Origin: Chitinophaga pinensis
Lineage (GTDB): Bacteria > Bacteroidota > Bacteroidia > Chitinophagales > UBA10324
Length of the DNA stretch: 33,505 nucleotides
Direction: 5' to 3'
Assembly: GCA_945903305.1 (NCBI GenBank)
Contig: CAMDOA010000026.1
Span: forward strand, 1-33,505
In this document: positions 18,181 to 28,075 of the stretch, piece by piece
Position numbering within the stretch: the stretch's first letter is position 1
Layout of the letters: each line of letters opens with the position of its first letter
Made by a program: the position numbers and the translations under genes
The notes under the pieces: model-generated
Databases searched by the model: none
Seen by the model: only the letters and a program-made list of their open reading frames with translations
Told to the model about the DNA's origin: nothing

Positions 18181-21177
18181 TTATATCCCCTCAACTTCTT
18201 CCCGCTCTTCCGGTTTCTGTTCTTTCTTCTTTATGGTGAATGAAGTTTTTGCGGTTGCACCATCAGCAGTTTTGAATTCAACAACATATTTTCCGGGAAT
18301 GAGATAATAATTTCCATCATCGGCTTTCACAAAATTGTTTTTGTCTTTTGTGGGGAGTGAATTTTTAAATGCATCAACGGCATTTGCTTCAACCACTAAA
18401 TTGTATTTCGCTAAATTAATTCCGGCTTCGCTAGTGTCTTTCAATATTGCAACCACAATACCGCTATCTGATTTTATCTGAAGAATGGTGATTCCTTTTT
18501 GCTTCACATAAAACGGAATAGAAATTTTCATTTGCATGGGTTCGTAGAACGAAGAAAATTTCTTCCCGAGATTTTTATTGTAGTTAATCGAACTAAGCTT
18601 GAATGAATGAATGTTTTCATTCACCACACTGTCGGTGAGTTGCTGAATCAAATCCAACTTTGCTTTGTAAAGTGAGCGACCATGAGTGCCTAACACAATT
18701 TCATTTGCTGTTGTTTGAATCGCAATGTCATGAATCGCCACTCTCGGCAACGCGCCATTCATCGCCATGAAATTTTTTCCGCGGTTGAGTGATACATACA
18801 TTCCATTATCAGTTCCGACATAAACAATGTTTTCATTCTTCAGGTCTTCCTTCACCACATTGATGGGTTCGAATGGTAAATCAGTTCCGATTTGTTTCCA
18901 TGTTTTTCCGAAATCATCACTCATGAATAAGTACGGAGAAAAATTATCGAAGCGATAACCATTCATCGAGACATAAACCCTGCTTTCGGAAAATGCAGAA
19001 GCGGTTACGCGAGAAACATAGAGCCCCGCCGCAATCCTCAACCCGGCCCTCTCCGAAGGAGAGGGAGAATACAACGCCTCAGAAATTTTTATCCATGTAT
19101 TGCCGCCATCTTTTGTGAGTTGAACATTTCCATCATCAGTGCCTACATAAATTTCTCCAAAGTGAAATGGCGATTCGCAAATGGTGGTGATAGTATTGTA
19201 AGGTACATCACCGGTTTTATTATGATTGGTTAGGTCGCCTGAAATGGCTTCGAACGATTTTCCCTGATTCATGCTGCGATATAATTTGTTGGTGCCGAAG
19301 TAGAGAATGTCCTGATTGAATTTCGAGAGAAGAATCGGCGATTGCCAGTTATAGCGCAAAGGCATTTCACCAAGCTCAATTGTTGGGCGCACATCTTCTG
19401 ACTCGCCTGTGGTCTTATTTATTTTTCCATAGTAACCAAACTGAGAACCGGCATACACGGTGTTGTTGTCGCGCGAGTCAACTTGTATCTGCATGCCATC
19501 GCCTCCATAAATAAATTTGTAAGGATACTGACCTTCCTGCAGCCAGTTTGTTGATGGCTTATAGGTAGAAGGACCGGTCCACACGCCATTATCCTGCAAG
19601 CCGCCATACACATTATAAGGTTTAGCATTGTCAACCGCCACAGTATAAAACTGCCCAACAGCAGGCGTGTTGCACTTAAACCAATTCTCCCCGAAATCAT
19701 AAGAGATATTTACTCCGCCATCATTACCGATAATTAAGTGACCATCCTTTTTTTCATTAAACCACACCGCATGATGGTCGCCGTGTGTGTTATCGCCATC
19801 GATGGTTTTGAAAGTTGTGCCGCCATCTTTCGATAGAATCATCGGCACACCCAACAACACAATTTTTTTATCGTCGAAAGGTGAGAGATAAATTTTTCCG
19901 AAGTAGTAACCATAAGTGTAAACGAGGCCTGCAAGTTTTGCCGTGTCAATTTTTTTCCATGTGGCCCCGGCATCATCACTCCGATATAATTCAGCGCCGA
20001 TAACGGGTGTATTGAATAGCGAGTTGTTTGCGTCGTTGAGGAAATCAATGAGCGCACCTGGTTTTATTTTTTCCTTCTTCACCATGTCCTTCACTTTCTC
20101 AGCAGAATATTTTTCAGGGAAACCATTGTCCTCTAAAAAACTTTGCAGTTTCTCGTTGTTGAGTGATAGAAAATTTTCTTTCGTGATGTCTTTCAAATCA
20201 TCAAGGGTGTAAGTAATGGTATCTGTTTCTTTTTCTTTCGCACGATGATTCTGATTATCGAGTATGGCATACAACACATTTGAATTCTGAAATGAAACGG
20301 CAACACCAATTCGTCCAATTCCTGCATCGTGCGGAAATCCATTTGTGCCGGTTGCAATCAGCTTCCAGGTATCACCGCCATCAATAGATTTATAAAGTCC
20401 ACTGCCTTCACCACTCTCCGAAAAATTCCATCCACGACGGTCGCGCTGCCACATACACGCATAAATAATTTGTGCATTTGCCGGGTCGGAAATCAATTCA
20501 ACTCCGCCGGTTAAATCATTTACAAATAGAACTTGCTTCCATGTTTTTCCGCCGTCGGTAGTTTTATAAATTCCTCTTTCTTTATTAGAAGAGTACAAGT
20601 GACCGAGTGCAGCAACCAGCACTGTGTTCGTATCTGTTGCACTCAGTAAAATTTTTCCGATGTGGTGCGATTCGGGCAAACCCTTCCACTGCCAGCTTTT
20701 TCCGCCATCACTGCTTCGATAAATTCCGATTCCGGAATATGAGGAGCGGCTGCTGTTTGCTTCGCCCGTTCCAACCCAAATTTGTTTGTTGTGATTCCAA
20801 TCCACCGCAAAATCCCCTATTGACAAAACATTTTCATTATCAAAAACGGGAGTGAACGATTGACCATTATTTACTGTGTGCCATAAACCACCGCTCGCGT
20901 ACGCCACATAAAATTCGGTCGGGTCGCTGGGATTTACATCCAAGTCAACACATCGTCCGCTCATGATGCTCGGACCAATGTTTGTGAACTGAATATTTTT
21001 CACCAGTGAGTTTTCTTCAAGCGATTTTCTTTTTTCAATTCCGGCAATGCGGTCGGCTGCGGGAGTGGAGGAAATGATTTGCGCATCGCATTTCGACAAG
21101 CTCAATGTGAAATTCAGAATAAAAATTAAAAATGAAAGATTAAAAATCAGGGGGAGTTTTGAAAAAACTATTTTCAT
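18181..21177 (-). CDS. Exported sortilin/BNR-repeat beta-propeller protein (VPS10-like)
   Basis: About 1000 residues (numbered here from an upstream ATG at 21201; the ATG at 21177, MKIVFSKLPLIFNLSF, is the better start because it begins a normal signal peptide). The body is a long series of Asp-box/BNR repeats of the form S-x-D-G-G-x-T-W: residues 163-170, 214-221, 272-279, 408-415, 457-464, 696-703 and 761-768. This is typical of Bacteroidota proteins often labelled glycosyl hydrolase or VPS10-domain; no catalytic residues can be assigned. Residues about 320-395 form a charged helical insertion between propeller blades. There is no clear T9SS sorting domain: the C-terminus is a short beta domain (GKYVVEFKTADG) and an acidic/basic tail. 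Residues about 711-726 are encoded by an inserted palindromic element. Confidence 0.86.
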   Translation of the reverse strand: MKIVFSKLPLIFNLSFLIFILNFTLSLSKCDAQIISSTPAADRIAGIEKRKSLEENSLVKNIQFTNIGPSIMSGRCVDLDVNPSDPTEFYVAYASGGLWHTVNNGQSFTPVFDNENVLSIGDFAVDWNHNKQIWVGTGEANSSRSSYSGIGIYRSSDGGKSWQWKGLPESHHIGKILLSATDTNTVLVAALGHLYSSNKERGIYKTTDGGKTWKQVLFVNDLTGGVELISDPANAQIIYACMWQRDRRGWNFSESGEGSGLYKSIDGGDTWKLIATGTNGFPHDAGIGRIGVAVSFQNSNVLYAILDNQNHRAKEKETDTITYTLDDLKDITKENFLSLNNEKLQSFLEDNGFPEKYSAEKVKDMVKKEKIKPGALIDFLNDANNSLFNTPVIGAELYRSDDAGATWKKIDTAKLAGLVYTYGYYFGKIYLSPFDDKKIVLLGVPMILSKDGGTTFKTIDGDNTHGDHHAVWFNEKKDGHLIIGNDGGVNISYDFGENWFKCNTPAVGQFYTVAVDNAKPYNVYGGLQDNGVWTGPSTYKPSTNWLQEGQYPYKFIYGGDGMQIQVDSRDNNTVYAGSQFGYYGKINKTTGESEDVRPTIELGEMPLRYNWQSPILLSKFNQDILYFGTNKLYRSMNQGKSFEAISGDLTNHNKTGDVPYNTITTICESPFHFGEIYVGTDDGNVQLTKDGGNTWIKISEALYSPSPSERAGLRIAAGLYVSRVTASAFSESRVYVSMNGYRFDNFSPYLFMSDDFGKTWKQIGTDLPFEPINVVKEDLKNENIVYVGTDNGMYVSLNRGKNFMAMNGALPRVAIHDIAIQTTANEIVLGTHGRSLYKAKLDLIQQLTDSVVNENIHSFKLSSINYNKNLGKKFSSFYEPMQMKISIPFYVKQKGITILQIKSDSGIVVAILKDTSEAGINLAKYNLVVEANAVDAFKNSLPTKDKNNFVKADDGNYYLIPGKYVVEFKTADGATAKTSFTIKKKEQKPEEREEVEGI
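19024..19071 (-). repeat. Palindromic repeat element inserted in frame in the BNR-repeat gene
   Basis: CCCTCTCC (19047-19054), loop GAA, GGAGAGGG (19058-19065) is a perfect 8-bp hairpin in a GC-rich block that contrasts with the surrounding gene. On the coding strand it continues GGCCGGGTTGAGG. I recall this combination as a scattered intergenic repeat in Bacteroidota genomes; that is from memory. It encodes SPSPSERAGLRIAAG, which breaks the normal propeller text between KISEAL and YVSRVTAS without shifting the frame. The outer limits are approximate (about 48 bases, a multiple of three). No second copy was found in the window. Confidence 0.6.
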
Positions 21178-22339: not shown

Positions 22340-25300
22340 TTATTGTATTTCAATCTTTTTTGCAATGACCGCATCATTCATTTTCAGGTGAATTATGTAG
22401 GTGCCTTTAGCATAGTGTTTAAACTCCAGAATTATTTCATTGGCGCCATAGGTTAAATCAAACTGTTTTGAAAACATTATCTGACCAATTATGTTTTTTA
22501 CTTCAACCACTGCTGTCTTTGATTCATTGCTATTAAATCGAACAGTTGCAAAATCTTCGGTTGGGTTAGGGAAAAGCTGAACATCATAGTTTTCAATTAC
22601 TTTTTCCAATTTGCAATTCATTGTAATGGCCTTTGATTTTATCAAACTTGTTGCACATGCATTGTTTGCTGTAACTGATACATTTCCGGCAGTAGCTCCA
22701 AAATTTACTATCGCGGCATTAGTGCCCTGACCTGTTGAAATAGTTGCTCCGGCAGGCGCTGTCCATGTATAATTAGTTGCACCTGTAACTGCTGCAATTG
22801 AATAATTAACTCCTGACTGATTTACACAAACTGTTGCACTTCCGGTTATTGTTCCCGGTGTTGCCGGGCGTCCGTATACTGTAAGTGTTTTGGTTGAACT
22901 GTTTCCACAAGTATTTCCGGCATAAACAGTAATGTTTCCAACCGAAAATCCGACATTGAAAGCGATGCTAACAGATGTGGTTCCCTGGCCACTAATTATA
23001 GAAGCTCCCCCTGTTACCGCCCATGTATAATTGGTTGCTCCTGAAACTAATGGAATGGAATAATTTAAGTTTCCGGAGTTACAGATATTATTAACCAAAC
23101 CAGTTATGGTTCCTGGTGTTGCAGGTGCTGATTTTATAGTAACCGCACGCGCAGTACTCGCTCCACATTGGTTATTTGCTGTAACGCTTATTGAACCGGT
23201 GATATATGCAGCATTAAAATTTATCGTAATTGAGTTAGTTCCTTGTCCGGTAATAATTGTAGCATTTGCCGGAGCAACCCAGTTATAAGATGTAGCATTT
23301 GCTACCGCGGCTGTTGAATAAACAACACCAACACCGGAACACACGCCGGCAATCGGTCCGATAATACTCACAGGAGTGCCGGGTTTACTTGCAAGCGCTT
23401 TAGTTCGGTTTGCACTTACACCAATACAATTGGATGCATTAATTGAAAGAGTTCCACTCACCCACGCTGGTCCAAATGAAAGTAAAATTGTTGTAGTACC
23501 TTGACCGGATAATATAGTCGTGTTCGCAGGAGCTATCCAGGTATAAGTAGTGGTATTAGCAACCGGTGAAACAGAAAAAGTTGCCGTGGTATTAATACAG
23601 TTTACAATATTACCCGCAATTACCCCAGGGGTTCCCGGCTTAACCGTAACAACATTGTAAGCAAAACTAGCGGCCACACTGTTACCGCAGCCATTCAATG
23701 CAATGCAAGAAATAGAAGATGAGGTAGCTGATGATGAGAAGGCAATCGAAACACTTGAAGTTCCCTGTCCTGAGGAAATGGTTGCCCCGCTTGACACCGC
23801 CCATAAATATGAAGTGGCATCACTTACTGAATTTACAGAATAGATAAATCCGGATTGACTTCTGCATACAAGCAATTTTGTGACGGAAAAGGTTGGTTGC
23901 GCCGGAACAGTGCCGGTTGACAAAACAGTTGAAGCTGAACTATCTGTACATCCGAGTGTATCGGTTACAATAACAGAATAATTTGCAGCCACAACATTCG
24001 TAAGATTTTGTGTGGTTGCTCCATTTGACCATGAATAAAGGAATGGTGAGGTTCCGCCGGTGATTGAATTAATAACCGAGCCATTGCTCTGCCCGCAAGA
24101 AGCATTAACAGAGTTAAGCACTACTGAAGGCGCACTTCCGCCAGCCGACACAGTTGCTGAACTTATTGTGTTGCATGCGTTCGCATCAGTAATAGTTACC
24201 GAATAAATTCCAGTAGAAATTGCTGATAAATTTTGTGTGGTCGCGCCATTGCTCCATGCATAGTTGTAAGGAGCGGTTCCTCCGCTTGCAGTTGCCGAAG
24301 CTGTTCCATTTGTATTTCCACAATTCAAAGTGCTTCCTGTTGCTGAACCTGAAACCAGTGTTGGCTGTGTGATTGTGAATGATTGATTATGCGAACATCC
24401 GTTTGCGTTTGTAACGGTTACTGAATAATTCCCGGCAGAGAGTACTGTGATGTTTTGGGTAGTGGCGCCATTACTCCAGTTATATGTATTTCCTGTTGAC
24501 GGATTTAATGTTAATGTGATATCTGCATTATTTCCTCCAAAACAATTTACGGTAGAATTTGAACCTGAAACTGAAAGAGTGCCAACATTTACATTTATGT
24601 GATTTGATTCAATGCTTCCACAAGCGTTGGTTGTTGTAACAAAATAATCGCCGCTGGTACTTGCAATAGTTGAGGCAGAAGTTCCGCCACCAATGCTCCA
24701 TGTTCCACCGGTTGAATTTCCGCTGAGTAAAACATTTCCACCTGAACAGAAAATTGTTGGGCCACCTGCTGTTAATGATGAAGCAACTGGCAATGGATTT
24801 ACTGTAACAGAAATATGATTTGATTCAATGCTTCCACACGAATTAGTTGTTGTTGTAAAATAATCTCCGGTTGTAGTTGCAGTTAATGTTGAAGTTGTTC
24901 CTCCACCAATACTCCAAGTTCCATTTGTAGAATTACCACTCAGTAAAACATTATCACCTGAACAGAAAGTTGTTGGACCGCCTGCTGTTAATGTTGATGG
25001 AGTCGGTAATGGGCTTAATGTCACCACCACATTATCAGTTGCTGTAATTCCGGAACTTGAGTGAGTAGAAGTGAGTGTATAAGTGGTTGTTGCAGTTGGC
25101 GATGCCGTTGGATTAGAAACATTCGCGCTGCTGAGTCCTGCTGTTGGTAGCCACGAATAATTTATGCCACTCACATCGGTCATTCCGATTGAGGCAGAAT
25201 TTCCTGAACAAATTATGGCATCGGTTCCTGCATTTGCCAGAACAGTTCCGTTGAAATTTATGTTGTCGATGTAAGTGTTGTTTCCGTAGCGGCCGATGTT

Positions 25301-28075
25301 GCGGAAAGAAACAATGATGCTCTGACCGATGTATGCATTCAGATTCAGTGTTTCAGTTCTCCATTGAGCGGCGGTTGGAATAAATGAAGCAGTGCTTACT
25401 ATTCCGGTTGTGTTTAAAGTATTTCCCCACTTAGTATAAATCGGAGAAAAAGTATTTCCACAATCAGTGGAAACCAAAACCTGCAACGAATCAATGTAAC
25501 TGGTGAGCGAGTATGGCTGATATGCAACATCAAAAGTGAGAGTGAGTGAATTGTAACTGGCAGTATTCAATTTCGGAGAATACAGTTCGTCTTTTGCTCC
25601 GGCCACATTCCAACTATAATTTGAAAAATACATACAGTTATTACTGGTGCCGAATCCGCCGGCACCATTGTACAGTGTCCATGCTTGCGAATTATTTCCT
25701 ACATCAATATTTGTCCACCCGGCTGAAGGAAAACTTCCGCCTTCATAATTCTCTGTCACATTCAGATTATTTCCGACAGTACTGATATAGTTGGTTTGTG
25801 TTAAAGTTGAATTGGTTGTTCCGTTACTTACAGTTAGAGTGACAGAATAAATTCCGGCAGCGCTGTAGGTTACTGTTGGATTAGCGGCAGTGGAAGTAGC
25901 TGGAGTTCCACCGGCAAATGTCCAAGTGCGCGAAGTCACACTACCTGTAGAGTTATCAATAAAGGTTATTGCCTGTCCCACACAAGGAGTGGTATTACTC
26001 GCTACAAAATTTGCGTTGAGTGCGCGAAGGTTGCTGATTGAAGTTTCCCAGGTTCCTCTTCCATAAGTAAACACACGAAGCGTTGTATTACTGGTACTGT
26101 CATTATAAATTCCCATATCAACAATTGAGGTTCGGCTCGGAAGATTGGTTGAGTAAATGCTCCAGGTTGTTGCGCTTCCGGTTTTGTAGTAAACAGCATT
26201 GTTGCTTGCCACAAACACTAATTGATTTGAAGAATAATATTCATCAGCTATAATATCCACATGATTTACAGCGGGAAGATTATAAGTGTTGTCAGTCCAG
26301 GTTGCTCCATTGTCTGTGCTCTTGTATGCCTTTGTATTTGCAGTAATGTAAATGGTGTTGAGTTGCGATTTAATGGAAGTGATGTTCGCGGCATTGTTGG
26401 TTGTATTCGGTAGGGTGTACGAAGTCCAGGTCGGTGTGGCCGCAAGTGCGTTTGTGGTTACATAAATCATGGCATCGTTGGTAATCACATACACCCGATT
26501 TGCATCACCGTAATGAACATGCACAGCCATAATAGTTTTGCTGAAAGTAGAAATCTGTGTCCATGTAGGAGTAGTGACACTCAGGTTTGTGGTGCGGTAA
26601 ATATTACTGCTGCCGACAAATGCAAGACTTGTATTGCCTCTGTAAAAAGCAATGGCAGTCATGGTTGTCACCGGCAAACCGTAAGTTGATTCACTTCCGG
26701 TTACCAATCTTCTTTTTGGAGTTGGAACAGTTCCCCAATCGGGTTGGTAGTAATAAACCATTGAGCTGTTTGCACGGAAGTCAAATGACGAACGCGATTG
26801 CCAGTCGCCACCGCGATTAGTAAACCACCCGCTTGCAGTTGCATATAATTCTCCATTATCCTGCGTGCCAATGCTGTACATATCTTTGCGGGTAGGACTG
26901 CAAGAACCATGATAAATTTCATAGCCATTTATTCCATCACTTTTCGGAGTCCAGTTACTGCCGCCATCAGTACTTAGGAATAAGCCCCCGTCATTTACAT
27001 TCCAAAGTTGTGCATTGTTATATGGATTTGTAAAAACCTGGTGCATATCGGTGTGGCACTTTGCCCACCAGTCAGTTAATTGAGTCCATGATGTTCCGCC
27101 ATTGGTTGATTTCCAGTTTGCGTGTGCACACAAATAAACTATGTCTTTATTCACACGATCAACGCCAATTCCGAAATTGTAATCGCCCTGCCCCGGATCA
27201 CTCACACTGTTTGTGTAGTAAGTGAGATAAGGTGAGCCCGAAGTTTTTATCAGCGAAAAATTTGTTCCGCCGTTTGTACTGCGATAAATAATTCCGCCGG
27301 TGGTTACCATTCCGAAATAAACATAATTACTGTCGGCAGGTGTTACTGCAATCCGGCAACCTCCGCCATTGGTTATTCCTGAAGGCAAAACAATTCCGGT
27401 ATTTATTTGACTCCATGTTTCGCCAAAATCTATTGAGCGAAAAAATCCGGTGTCTCTAGTTGCCGCAAACAAAGTTCTGGAAGCCGTATTGGCTTTCATT
27501 TTCATATCATCAAATGCCCGTGATGTTGATTTCAAAATCCAAGTTGTTCCGCCATTTATTGTTTTATAAATTCCGGTATTAGTTGCTGCAACTATCACTT
27601 GGTTATTAGTAGGATCCATTACTAATTCCACAACTATTTTGTTGTTGAGTGATGTTTGAGTAAATGTGGTTCCACCGTTTGTTGATTTCCAAACTCCGGT
27701 ACCACTTGAATAATAATTATGATCTCCTGCACCGAGGTAAATTATCTGGTCGTTTGTATGATCAATACAAACAGAAGCAAAACGATTCGATGGCATCGGA
27801 TCGCAACCCGGGGCAATGGTCCAGTTGTTTCCGCCATCAACAGAAATAAATAATCCGCCGCGCGCACTCACTGCATACATCTTGAGCGAATTGGTTGGGT
27901 GAAATTTCAATTGACTCACGCGTGAGATGCCGTGAATTTGCCCGCTTGCGTTTGTCGGGAAAACACTTGGTGACACGGCTGTCCAGTTGGCGGATTGGGC
28001 GGAAGCATCTCTTGTGAATAGTGAATGATCAATCGTCAATATTGCTATTAAGAGGATGAGAAGTTTTTTATTCAT
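22340..28075 (-). CDS. Giant mosaic T9SS surface protein (BNR propeller, PKD, SprB repeats)
   Basis: A 1911-residue exported protein. Domains in order: signal peptide 1-27 (ending RDASAQ); Asp-box/BNR propeller about 30-690 with boxes near 77, 131, 172, 214, 266, 323, 368 and 586; PKD domain 690-767; a jelly-roll or MAM/choice-of-anchor-like domain 772-942 (YEGGSFPSAGWTNID at its start); an adhesion-type beta domain 945-1022; two similar Ig-like units 1023-1095 and 1096-1165; three SprB repeats 1168-1238, 1240-1312 and 1314-1387 (each with YxWSNGATTQN); five PKD-like units 1391-1822 (each with ISGQGT-type turns); and a type A T9SS sorting domain 1830-1911 (QLFPNPTEDFATVRF). SprB repeats occur in the gliding adhesin SprB, so a cell-surface adhesin or filament role is plausible. 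It forms a pair with the small exported protein gene 60 bases upstream. Confidence 0.92.
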   Translation of the reverse strand: MNKKLLILLIAILTIDHSLFTRDASAQSANWTAVSPSVFPTNASGQIHGISRVSQLKFHPTNSLKMYAVSARGGLFISVDGGNNWTIAPGCDPMPSNRFASVCIDHTNDQIIYLGAGDHNYYSSGTGVWKSTNGGTTFTQTSLNNKIVVELVMDPTNNQVIVAATNTGIYKTINGGTTWILKSTSRAFDDMKMKANTASRTLFAATRDTGFFRSIDFGETWSQINTGIVLPSGITNGGGCRIAVTPADSNYVYFGMVTTGGIIYRSTNGGTNFSLIKTSGSPYLTYYTNSVSDPGQGDYNFGIGVDRVNKDIVYLCAHANWKSTNGGTSWTQLTDWWAKCHTDMHQVFTNPYNNAQLWNVNDGGLFLSTDGGSNWTPKSDGINGYEIYHGSCSPTRKDMYSIGTQDNGELYATASGWFTNRGGDWQSRSSFDFRANSSMVYYYQPDWGTVPTPKRRLVTGSESTYGLPVTTMTAIAFYRGNTSLAFVGSSNIYRTTNLSVTTPTWTQISTFSKTIMAVHVHYGDANRVYVITNDAMIYVTTNALAATPTWTSYTLPNTTNNAANITSIKSQLNTIYITANTKAYKSTDNGATWTDNTYNLPAVNHVDIIADEYYSSNQLVFVASNNAVYYKTGSATTWSIYSTNLPSRTSIVDMGIYNDSTSNTTLRVFTYGRGTWETSISNLRALNANFVASNTTPCVGQAITFIDNSTGSVTSRTWTFAGGTPATSTAANPTVTYSAAGIYSVTLTVSNGTTNSTLTQTNYISTVGNNLNVTENYEGGSFPSAGWTNIDVGNNSQAWTLYNGAGGFGTSNNCMYFSNYSWNVAGAKDELYSPKLNTASYNSLTLTFDVAYQPYSLTSYIDSLQVLVSTDCGNTFSPIYTKWGNTLNTTGIVSTASFIPTAAQWRTETLNLNAYIGQSIIVSFRNIGRYGNNTYIDNINFNGTVLANAGTDAIICSGNSASIGMTDVSGINYSWLPTAGLSSANVSNPTASPTATTTYTLTSTHSSSGITATDNVVVTLSPLPTPSTLTAGGPTTFCSGDNVLLSGNSTNGTWSIGGGTTSTLTATTTGDYFTTTTNSCGSIESNHISVTVNPLPVASSLTAGGPTIFCSGGNVLLSGNSTGGTWSIGGGTSASTIASTSGDYFVTTTNACGSIESNHINVNVGTLSVSGSNSTVNCFGGNNADITLTLNPSTGNTYNWSNGATTQNITVLSAGNYSVTVTNANGCSHNQSFTITQPTLVSGSATGSTLNCGNTNGTASATASGGTAPYNYAWSNGATTQNLSAISTGIYSVTITDANACNTISSATVSAGGSAPSVVLNSVNASCGQSNGSVINSITGGTSPFLYSWSNGATTQNLTNVVAANYSVIVTDTLGCTDSSASTVLSTGTVPAQPTFSVTKLLVCRSQSGFIYSVNSVSDATSYLWAVSSGATISSGQGTSSVSIAFSSSATSSSISCIALNGCGNSVAASFAYNVVTVKPGTPGVIAGNIVNCINTTATFSVSPVANTTTYTWIAPANTTILSGQGTTTILLSFGPAWVSGTLSINASNCIGVSANRTKALASKPGTPVSIIGPIAGVCSGVGVVYSTAAVANATSYNWVAPANATIITGQGTNSITINFNAAYITGSISVTANNQCGASTARAVTIKSAPATPGTITGLVNNICNSGNLNYSIPLVSGATNYTWAVTGGASIISGQGTTSVSIAFNVGFSVGNITVYAGNTCGNSSTKTLTVYGRPATPGTITGSATVCVNQSGVNYSIAAVTGATNYTWTAPAGATISTGQGTNAAIVNFGATAGNVSVTANNACATSLIKSKAITMNCKLEKVIENYDVQLFPNPTEDFATVRFNSNESKTAVVEVKNIIGQIMFSKQFDLTYGANEIILEFKHYAKGTYIIHLKMNDAVIAKKIEIQ
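22610..23905 (-). repeat. Five tandem PKD-like units in the giant surface protein
   Basis: Residues 1391-1822 form five units of about 86 residues. Most begin with PGTPG or PATPG and share a cysteine after a short spacer, a Y-x-W core strand, ISGQGT or similar, and a second cysteine near ANNxC. The units have diverged in sequence, so this is old protein-level duplication rather than recent DNA amplification. Confidence 0.8.
23915..24574 (-). repeat. Three tandem SprB repeats
   Basis: Residues 1168-1387 hold three units of about 72 residues, each with a Cys near the start, W/YSNGATTQN in the middle, AxxYSVxVT and a closing xGC or NAC. The core WSNGATTQN is identical in all three. Confidence 0.82.
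24581..25009 (-). repeat. Two tandem Ig-like units
   Basis: Residues 1023-1095 and 1096-1165 are close copies, roughly three quarters identical. Both contain LTAGGPT, FCSG, NVLLSGNST, GTWSIGGGT and CGSIESNH. The higher similarity suggests a more recent duplication than the PKD-like array. Confidence 0.8.

Follow-up and report, generated by a model that had tools for sequence, protein, structure and literature searches.

An in-frame palindromic insertion in a beta-propeller gene of Chitinophaga pinensis belongs to a Bacteroidota repeat family associated with DUF559 nuclease domains

The stretch of DNA analysed here (referred to as the window) is 33,505 nt long and comes from contig CAMDOA010000026.1 of a 3.1-Mb, 138-contig Chitinophaga pinensis assembly (GCA_945903305.1, here G000). 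It includes a gene for a Sortilin/Vps10-type BNR beta-propeller protein, into which a short palindromic element has been inserted in frame. This element belongs to a dispersed palindrome family of Bacteroidota that is also read in frame within unrelated genes, and that is associated with DUF559 (PF04480), described in part of PMC12907096 as a domain of Vsr-like endonucleases in the PD-(D/E)XK superfamily. The window copy is probably a solo, non-autonomous remnant of this DUF559-linked family, with DUF559 as the putative mover.

The insertion and the empty sites

An initial annotation of the window had proposed that a palindromic repeat lies in frame inside a surface beta-propeller gene, and this was confirmed by the empty site in relatives and by a match to a repeat family. 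Orthologues of the host protein, 85-89 % identical to it, were found in all five of the congeners searched, which are metagenome genomes labelled Bacteroidota or Chitinophagaceae, with one labelled Chitinophaga pinensis. At the site, the congener proteins read KxS-x-x-L-PQN-L-(Y/W)VSRV, and the window protein reads KISEAL-YSPSPSERAGLRIAAG-LYVSRV. The 16 inserted residues (711-726 of the host protein, exactly 16 codons at 19024-19071) are absent from all five orthologues, where the sequence is uninterrupted. At the DNA level, the segment is 135 nt in the window versus 96 nt in the congeners, with 48 nt in place of 9 and the frame kept. The block of about 48 bases and the preserved frame had been described correctly, but the net gain is 39 nt, since the 9 nt encoding PQN were replaced. 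The flanks KISEAL and YVSRV had also been given correctly, except for a Y preceding the quoted peptide and an L following it.

The expectation that homologues lack the inserted residues also held among 16 more distant sequences, none of which contains the insert. Twelve of these are again 96 nt long at the site, and four have short unrelated extensions (102, 105, 105 and 120 nt), as would be expected of a tolerant loop. Within the genus, the insert is private to one of the six species.

The perfect hairpin reported earlier, CCCTCTCC-GAA-GGAGAGGG with an 8-bp stem, is present (Table 1). Folded as DNA, the 49-nt stretch gave -8.0 kcal/mol (z -1.75), a fold only modestly more stable than those of shuffles, 15 of 200 of which did as well. 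The 17-nt inner palindrome pattern, with up to two mismatches, occurs once in the window versus 0.01 times expected from shuffles. Over 6-7 nt, ATTGCGG of the insert resembles, in inverted orientation, the native TTTTGCGG that was lost, but this similarity was dropped as post hoc.

Table 1. Positions of the host gene, the insert and the palindromic element in the window
Feature	Position	Strand	Basis
Host gene, Sortilin/Vps10-type BNR beta-propeller protein, 1006 aa	18184..21201	-	Open reading frame list; Pfam; orthologues
In-frame insert YSPSPSERAGLRIAAG (16 aa, 48 nt) replacing the 3-residue PQN loop of homologues, net +39 nt	19024..19071	-	Protein and DNA comparison
Dispersed palindromic element, copy of the 42-nt GG subfamily	19035..19076	+	Alignment with nine other copies from the same genome; R1
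Perfect hairpin, 8-bp stem, GAA loop	19047..19065	.	Sequence inspection; fold

The palindrome family

The 19-nt core of the element, with at most one mismatch, is found at six places in the source genome, the window included, and the flanks of the copies are in register. A covariance model, R1, was built from ten of the copies in this genome, and the score of the window copy (49.9 bits, E 3.0e-7) is that of one of these ten training copies. R1 matched 24 times in the source genome (ten of them the training copies), 20, 26 and 24 times in three of the congeners, and once and not at all in the other two. Matches were present in 9 of 20 nearer genomes and, with stricter filters, in 27 of 296 sampled Bacteroidota genomes, the source genome being counted in both sets. 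The core is 42-44 nt long, and composites of two cores are longer.

The family consensus is CCTCACCCCTAACCCCTCTCC-nnn-GGAGAGGGGAAnAGACGCG, with a 9-bp stem in which 96.6 % of the cells are paired over 94 matches. The loop is 3 nt in 73 of these and 4-5 nt in 12. Compensatory changes maintain the stem, as both sides have changed in 60 cells distributed over seven of the nine pairs, compared with a shuffle mean of 12.4 and a value of 60 reached by none of 500 shuffles, in an alignment fitted to the R1 model, which favours this result. The 94 matches lie in 80 stretches, and removal of three that overlapped left 91 copies in four genomes. This count leaves out six congener matches (four in G004, two in G005) and the single one of G003. 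The sequence GACG (CGTC on the other strand) is within the last 12 nt of 19 of the 91 copies, and the window copy is not among them.

Two contigs of the source assembly look, from the divergence of their genes, foreign to it. Apart from the window copy, the exact window core is found only on contig C125 (L094), which also has the only other core of the GG subfamily, in a PriA only 57 % identical to those of the congeners, and another PriA is on C24. The LeuRS on C138 (L185) is 67 % identical to those of the congeners, and the genome has another LeuRS copy. One of the 24 R1 copies of the source genome is on C125.

Intergenic cores are often within a larger, MITE-like (miniature inverted-repeat transposable element) unit with outer arms resembling TAGACTTCTTCGGAAAAT ... 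ATTTTCCGAAGAAGTCTA. This unit was seen at L092, L095, L097 and L098 in the source genome and at L145 and L147 in G004, and in part at L087 and L124.

Copies within the reading frames of other genes

A copy was classed as in frame, by a permissive rule, if the open reading frame (ORF) in which it lies spans 150 codons or more and extends beyond the core by 20 codons or more in both directions. By this rule, 34 of the 91 copies are inside long frames, in six frame classes and with both strands read. The other 57 are outside, which agrees with the earlier suggestion that the repeat is a scattered intergenic element of Bacteroidota with many copies.

When 20 of these ORFs were scanned with Pfam, the core was inside a match, or between matches belonging to one protein, in nine: an epimerase, PriA (on the foreign-looking contig), PyrD, CysS, a glycosyltransferase, SufD twice, LeuRS and DnaE. 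Among the remaining 11, one has the core inside Mfd (identified by NCBIfam and by comparison with congeners), two are DnaE with the core past the last match, and in eight the core is either only N-terminal to a match or in an ORF with none. In the source genome, 8 of the 24 copies are located in five such ORFs, namely the window gene, Mfd (four cores), DnaE, the epimerase and the foreign-looking PriA.

Further empty sites were found for some of these copies. The four-core stretch of Mfd in the source genome is 378 nt long versus 90 nt in all five congeners (+288 nt). LeuRS of the congener G005 has two filled sites, one longer by 24 nt and the other by 63 nt, and the second insert is common to G004. 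At each of the filled Mfd and LeuRS sites compared, native residues have been replaced. At the position of the PyrD core, the segment is shorter in the three solved structures compared. Two cores are each common to two species. That in DnaE is identical at 42 of 46 positions, versus 1627 of 1778 in the remainder of the gene, and that in SufD at 44 of 46, versus 1158 of 1241; both appear to evolve at roughly the pace of the genes that contain them. Copies within recognisable proteins were also found in further Bacteroidota, for example in LeuRS and in a primase-polymerase.

Association of the palindromes with DUF559

DUF559 was first seen in frame beside a core in two of ten scanned ORFs, MetH of G289 and LeuRS of G012. 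Proximity was then defined as an R1 match with E<=0.1 within 200 bp, and was scored at 60 DUF559 loci, which are the best-scoring DUF559 matches and not all of them. A core-type palindrome was near 30 of the 60 (14/30 and 16/30 in the two sets of loci), and 17 of these 30 loci have one on each side. The same test found none at 22 control BNR loci and none at 50 Y1_Tnp loci (two of which overlap).

Some of the DUF559 genes are free-standing. In the congener G005, such a gene ends with TAA and an array of elements in alternating orientation starts directly after it, and in the congener G002 a core-type element is 33 nt after a DUF559 match. Among those matches that were made into loci, no nearby core was found for the DUF559 loci of G004 or for the other one in G002 (L292, L296). 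DUF559 was detected in 28 of 60 genomes of relatives, the source genome being one of the 60, and gave no match in the source genome or in G001.

In other cases, DUF559 is encoded in frame within a recognisable host protein. Of 22 long DUF559 ORFs, eight are LeuRS, two MetH, two IcmF-type mutases, six restriction-modification proteins and four others, one each of UvrD, HemE, an M23 peptidase and a PurL-type amidotransferase, with DUF559 C-terminal in HemE and the amidotransferase. No splicing domain was matched in Pfam scans of these 22 ORFs. Two of the DUF559-bearing LeuRS score above the leuS_bact cut-off of NCBIfam (740 and 739 versus 548 bits), as does one DUF559-bearing MetH relative to its curated cut-off, and one IcmF, from a partial ORF, is below its own.

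The LeuRS cassettes, which come from eight genomes, have a palindrome within 200 bp in seven (the exception is G157) and occupy two sites. The first site is empty in G000-G003 and G009, and the second in G012, G002 and G000. The peptides read at the cassette sides, for example LTPTLSKGEG, TPSPLERGQGVR and PLSSGEGLGVR, match SPSPSERAGLR in the window insert in type. The two sites, before EVFTTRPDTIFG and before TTMPGWAGSSWY, are used in several genomes of different families and look like hot spots. Separately, ORF 1-3309 of L287 (G045) is an HsdR frame that contains DUF559 and, at aa 266-334, an in-frame GIY-YIG nuclease domain, so the niche may serve more than one type of nuclease.

Relationship to known elements

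In-frame palindromes are already known from the Rickettsia palindromic elements (RPEs; parts of PMC2229807 and PMC10969869), which are 105-146 bp long according to the former, and the reference list of PMC2229807 includes a title on Wolbachia palindromic elements. The parallel with RPEs drawn in the initial annotation holds for behaviour, as both are dispersed palindromes that occur in intergenic DNA and in frame in unrelated conserved genes, where an extra peptide is read. However, the core here is 42-44 nt, the phylum is different, frames on both strands are used and there is a link to a nuclease gene. The in-frame copies in housekeeping enzymes and the DUF559 link had not been noticed in the initial annotation.

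The GTAG/CGTC repetitive extragenic palindromes (REPs) are also similar. The sections of PMC3733652 that deal with them describe intragenic copies in other bacteria, among them copies in the genes for DnaE, UvrD/REP helicase and tRNA synthetases, with many in replication and repair genes. CGTC REPs are described there as having an 8-9-bp stem and a 4-5-nt loop, as occurring singly or in pairs of opposite orientation, in Bacteroidetes too, and are said to be without a dedicated transposase. The present family shares the 8-9-bp type of stem, the intragenic location and the single or oppositely paired arrangement. It differs in that GTAG is not in the consensus, CGTC is found in a minority, the loop is mostly 3 nt, the GC-rich stem does not start with AT and there is no link to Y1 transposases. 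By both tag and loop, the family falls outside this class.

The combination of an enzyme gene with an adjoining palindrome array and scattered gene-less copies resembles the 'REPtron' formed by REPs and REP-associated tyrosine transposases (RAYTs), though the enzyme here is DUF559 and there a Y1 HUH transposase. The terminal inverted repeats plus target-site duplication by which MITEs are defined were not recognised in the family, some intergenic copies of which are within the larger unit with outer arms. A nuclease domain in frame within an essential host protein recalls inteins and homing endonucleases, but here there is no splicing-domain match, palindromes are at the sides and solo copies are found elsewhere. 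Homing endonucleases include Vsr-like ones. No prior report of this Bacteroidota family or of DUF559 cassettes, and no paper with the words of the insert peptide, was found in searches of the open-licence PMC literature. In-frame palindromes are a known kind of element, and it is the nuclease link that appears to be new.

Origin of the in-frame palindromes

We propose that small palindromic mobile repeats of Bacteroidota enter both genes and intergenic DNA, and that copies which keep the frame in a tolerant loop would survive as translated peptides, the peptide itself being passive. The link to DUF559 takes two forms, either a free-standing gene with an array or a palindrome-flanked in-frame cassette such as that in LeuRS. 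DUF559 may cut the hairpin or close to it, and the palindrome, alone or together with the nuclease gene, may be copied into the break during repair. Solo cores and composites of two cores would then be non-autonomous derivatives, comparable to the MITEs of insertion sequences or the REPs of RAYTs. The window copy is of the same palindrome family as the DUF559-side cores, and its own genome is without a DUF559 match, so the copies there are probably relics or moved earlier. More broadly, and with somewhat less conviction, Bacteroidota might have a class of mobile DNA in which a DUF559 cassette with palindromic sides sits in frame, without splicing, in essential proteins, in which solo palindromes derived from it are dispersed in genomes and translated, the window insert being one, and in which DUF559 is the missing enzyme of a palindrome family that lacks a Y1 transposase.

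Several observations weigh against DUF559 as the mover, a role that we infer from association and not from observed movement. Half of the DUF559 loci (30/60), including the LeuRS cassette of G157, have no nearby core, and the search for DUF559 found no match in the source genome, which has 24 element copies. Single matches with E of about 1e-4 to 1e-6 account for 12 of 26 R1-positive genomes. The presence of DUF559 in 60 chosen genomes favours the link, with 22 of the 26 R1-positive versus 17 of the 34 R1-negative ones, but the Fisher p value of 0.007 is uncorrected for phylogeny, and in the 20 nearer genomes the association is weak (6/9 versus 3/11, p 0.17). The cassette-side palindromes occur in both polarities and are therefore not simple terminal inverted repeats. 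Finally, inspection by eye of four filled/empty sites revealed no target-site duplication, and native DNA has been replaced there.

The same absences would suit an ordinary family of REP or RPE type that has its own mover, with DUF559 co-located because it uses the same insertion sites or travels jointly, and the sections of PMC3733652 on REPs found within genes for repair proteins and tRNA synthetases in other bacteria do not name DUF559. We regard this as possible though rather unlikely, as the 30 positive loci among 60 contrast with 0/50 and 0/22 in the controls, and as DUF559 is bounded by palindromes on both sides several times within a single host frame. Movement of a MITE or REPIN (REP doublet forming hairpin) by a Y1 (IS200/RAYT) transposase was rejected as very improbable. 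REP/RAYT systems typically have short hairpins arranged in alternating pairs, and part of PMC6006769 places two TnpA-REP subclasses, 2.4 and 2.6, in Bacteroidetes, one with REPs inside tnpA and the other flanked by atypical structures. Searches with PF01797 also found Y1_Tnp genes in 15 of 20 genomes (the source genome included) and in six of seven element-bearing genomes. Nonetheless, no core was within 200 bp of the 50 Y1_Tnp loci or beside 11 further stretches at weaker Y1 matches in the source family and congeners (one core was 1.4 kb off), and the congener G003 has five Y1 matches yet one element. The closest neighbourhood of this kind to be found is on contig C52 of G213 (L251), where some 600 bp separate an element pair from a Y1 frame that a single TGA interrupts.

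Retention of the peptide or the mRNA hairpin for its usefulness to the protein or transcript would fit the persistence of the two shared cores between species at about the rate of their host genes. It has still less to recommend it, given the unrelated hosts, the six frame classes among 34 copies and the presence of the window copy in only one of six species. An ordinary length change of a variable loop that resembles a repeat by chance is the least credible explanation. Loop length does vary in 4 of the 16 distant homologues, but chance resemblance is already refuted by the family match, with the core at five other places in the genome, flanks in register and 0.01 palindromes expected.

How palindromes come to be in frame in conserved genes is a question that dates from the Rickettsia case. 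With filled and empty sites in close relatives, hosts that include essential enzymes and an adjoining candidate enzyme, the mover of in-frame palindromes becomes directly testable here, and DUF559, a widespread family, could gain a role. The findings are also a warning that what is annotated as a loop, domain or fusion in a Bacteroidota protein can be left over from mobile DNA.

Host protein and neighbouring gene

The host protein matches PF15902 (E 1.6e-33), PF02012 and PF15899, and a search of PDB sequences gave weak matches with Sortilin at the top. AlphaFold2 models, with a predicted local distance difference test (pLDDT) score of 36.5 for the whole protein and 40.8 for residues 615-850, were too weak for use; in the latter model the insert is largely coil between strands, an outcome that was given no weight. 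An Rfam scan of the window gave no match. R1 found no core in the 1911-aa frame at 22340-28075 (-), which adjoins the host gene and looks like that of a larger surface protein containing repeated segments.

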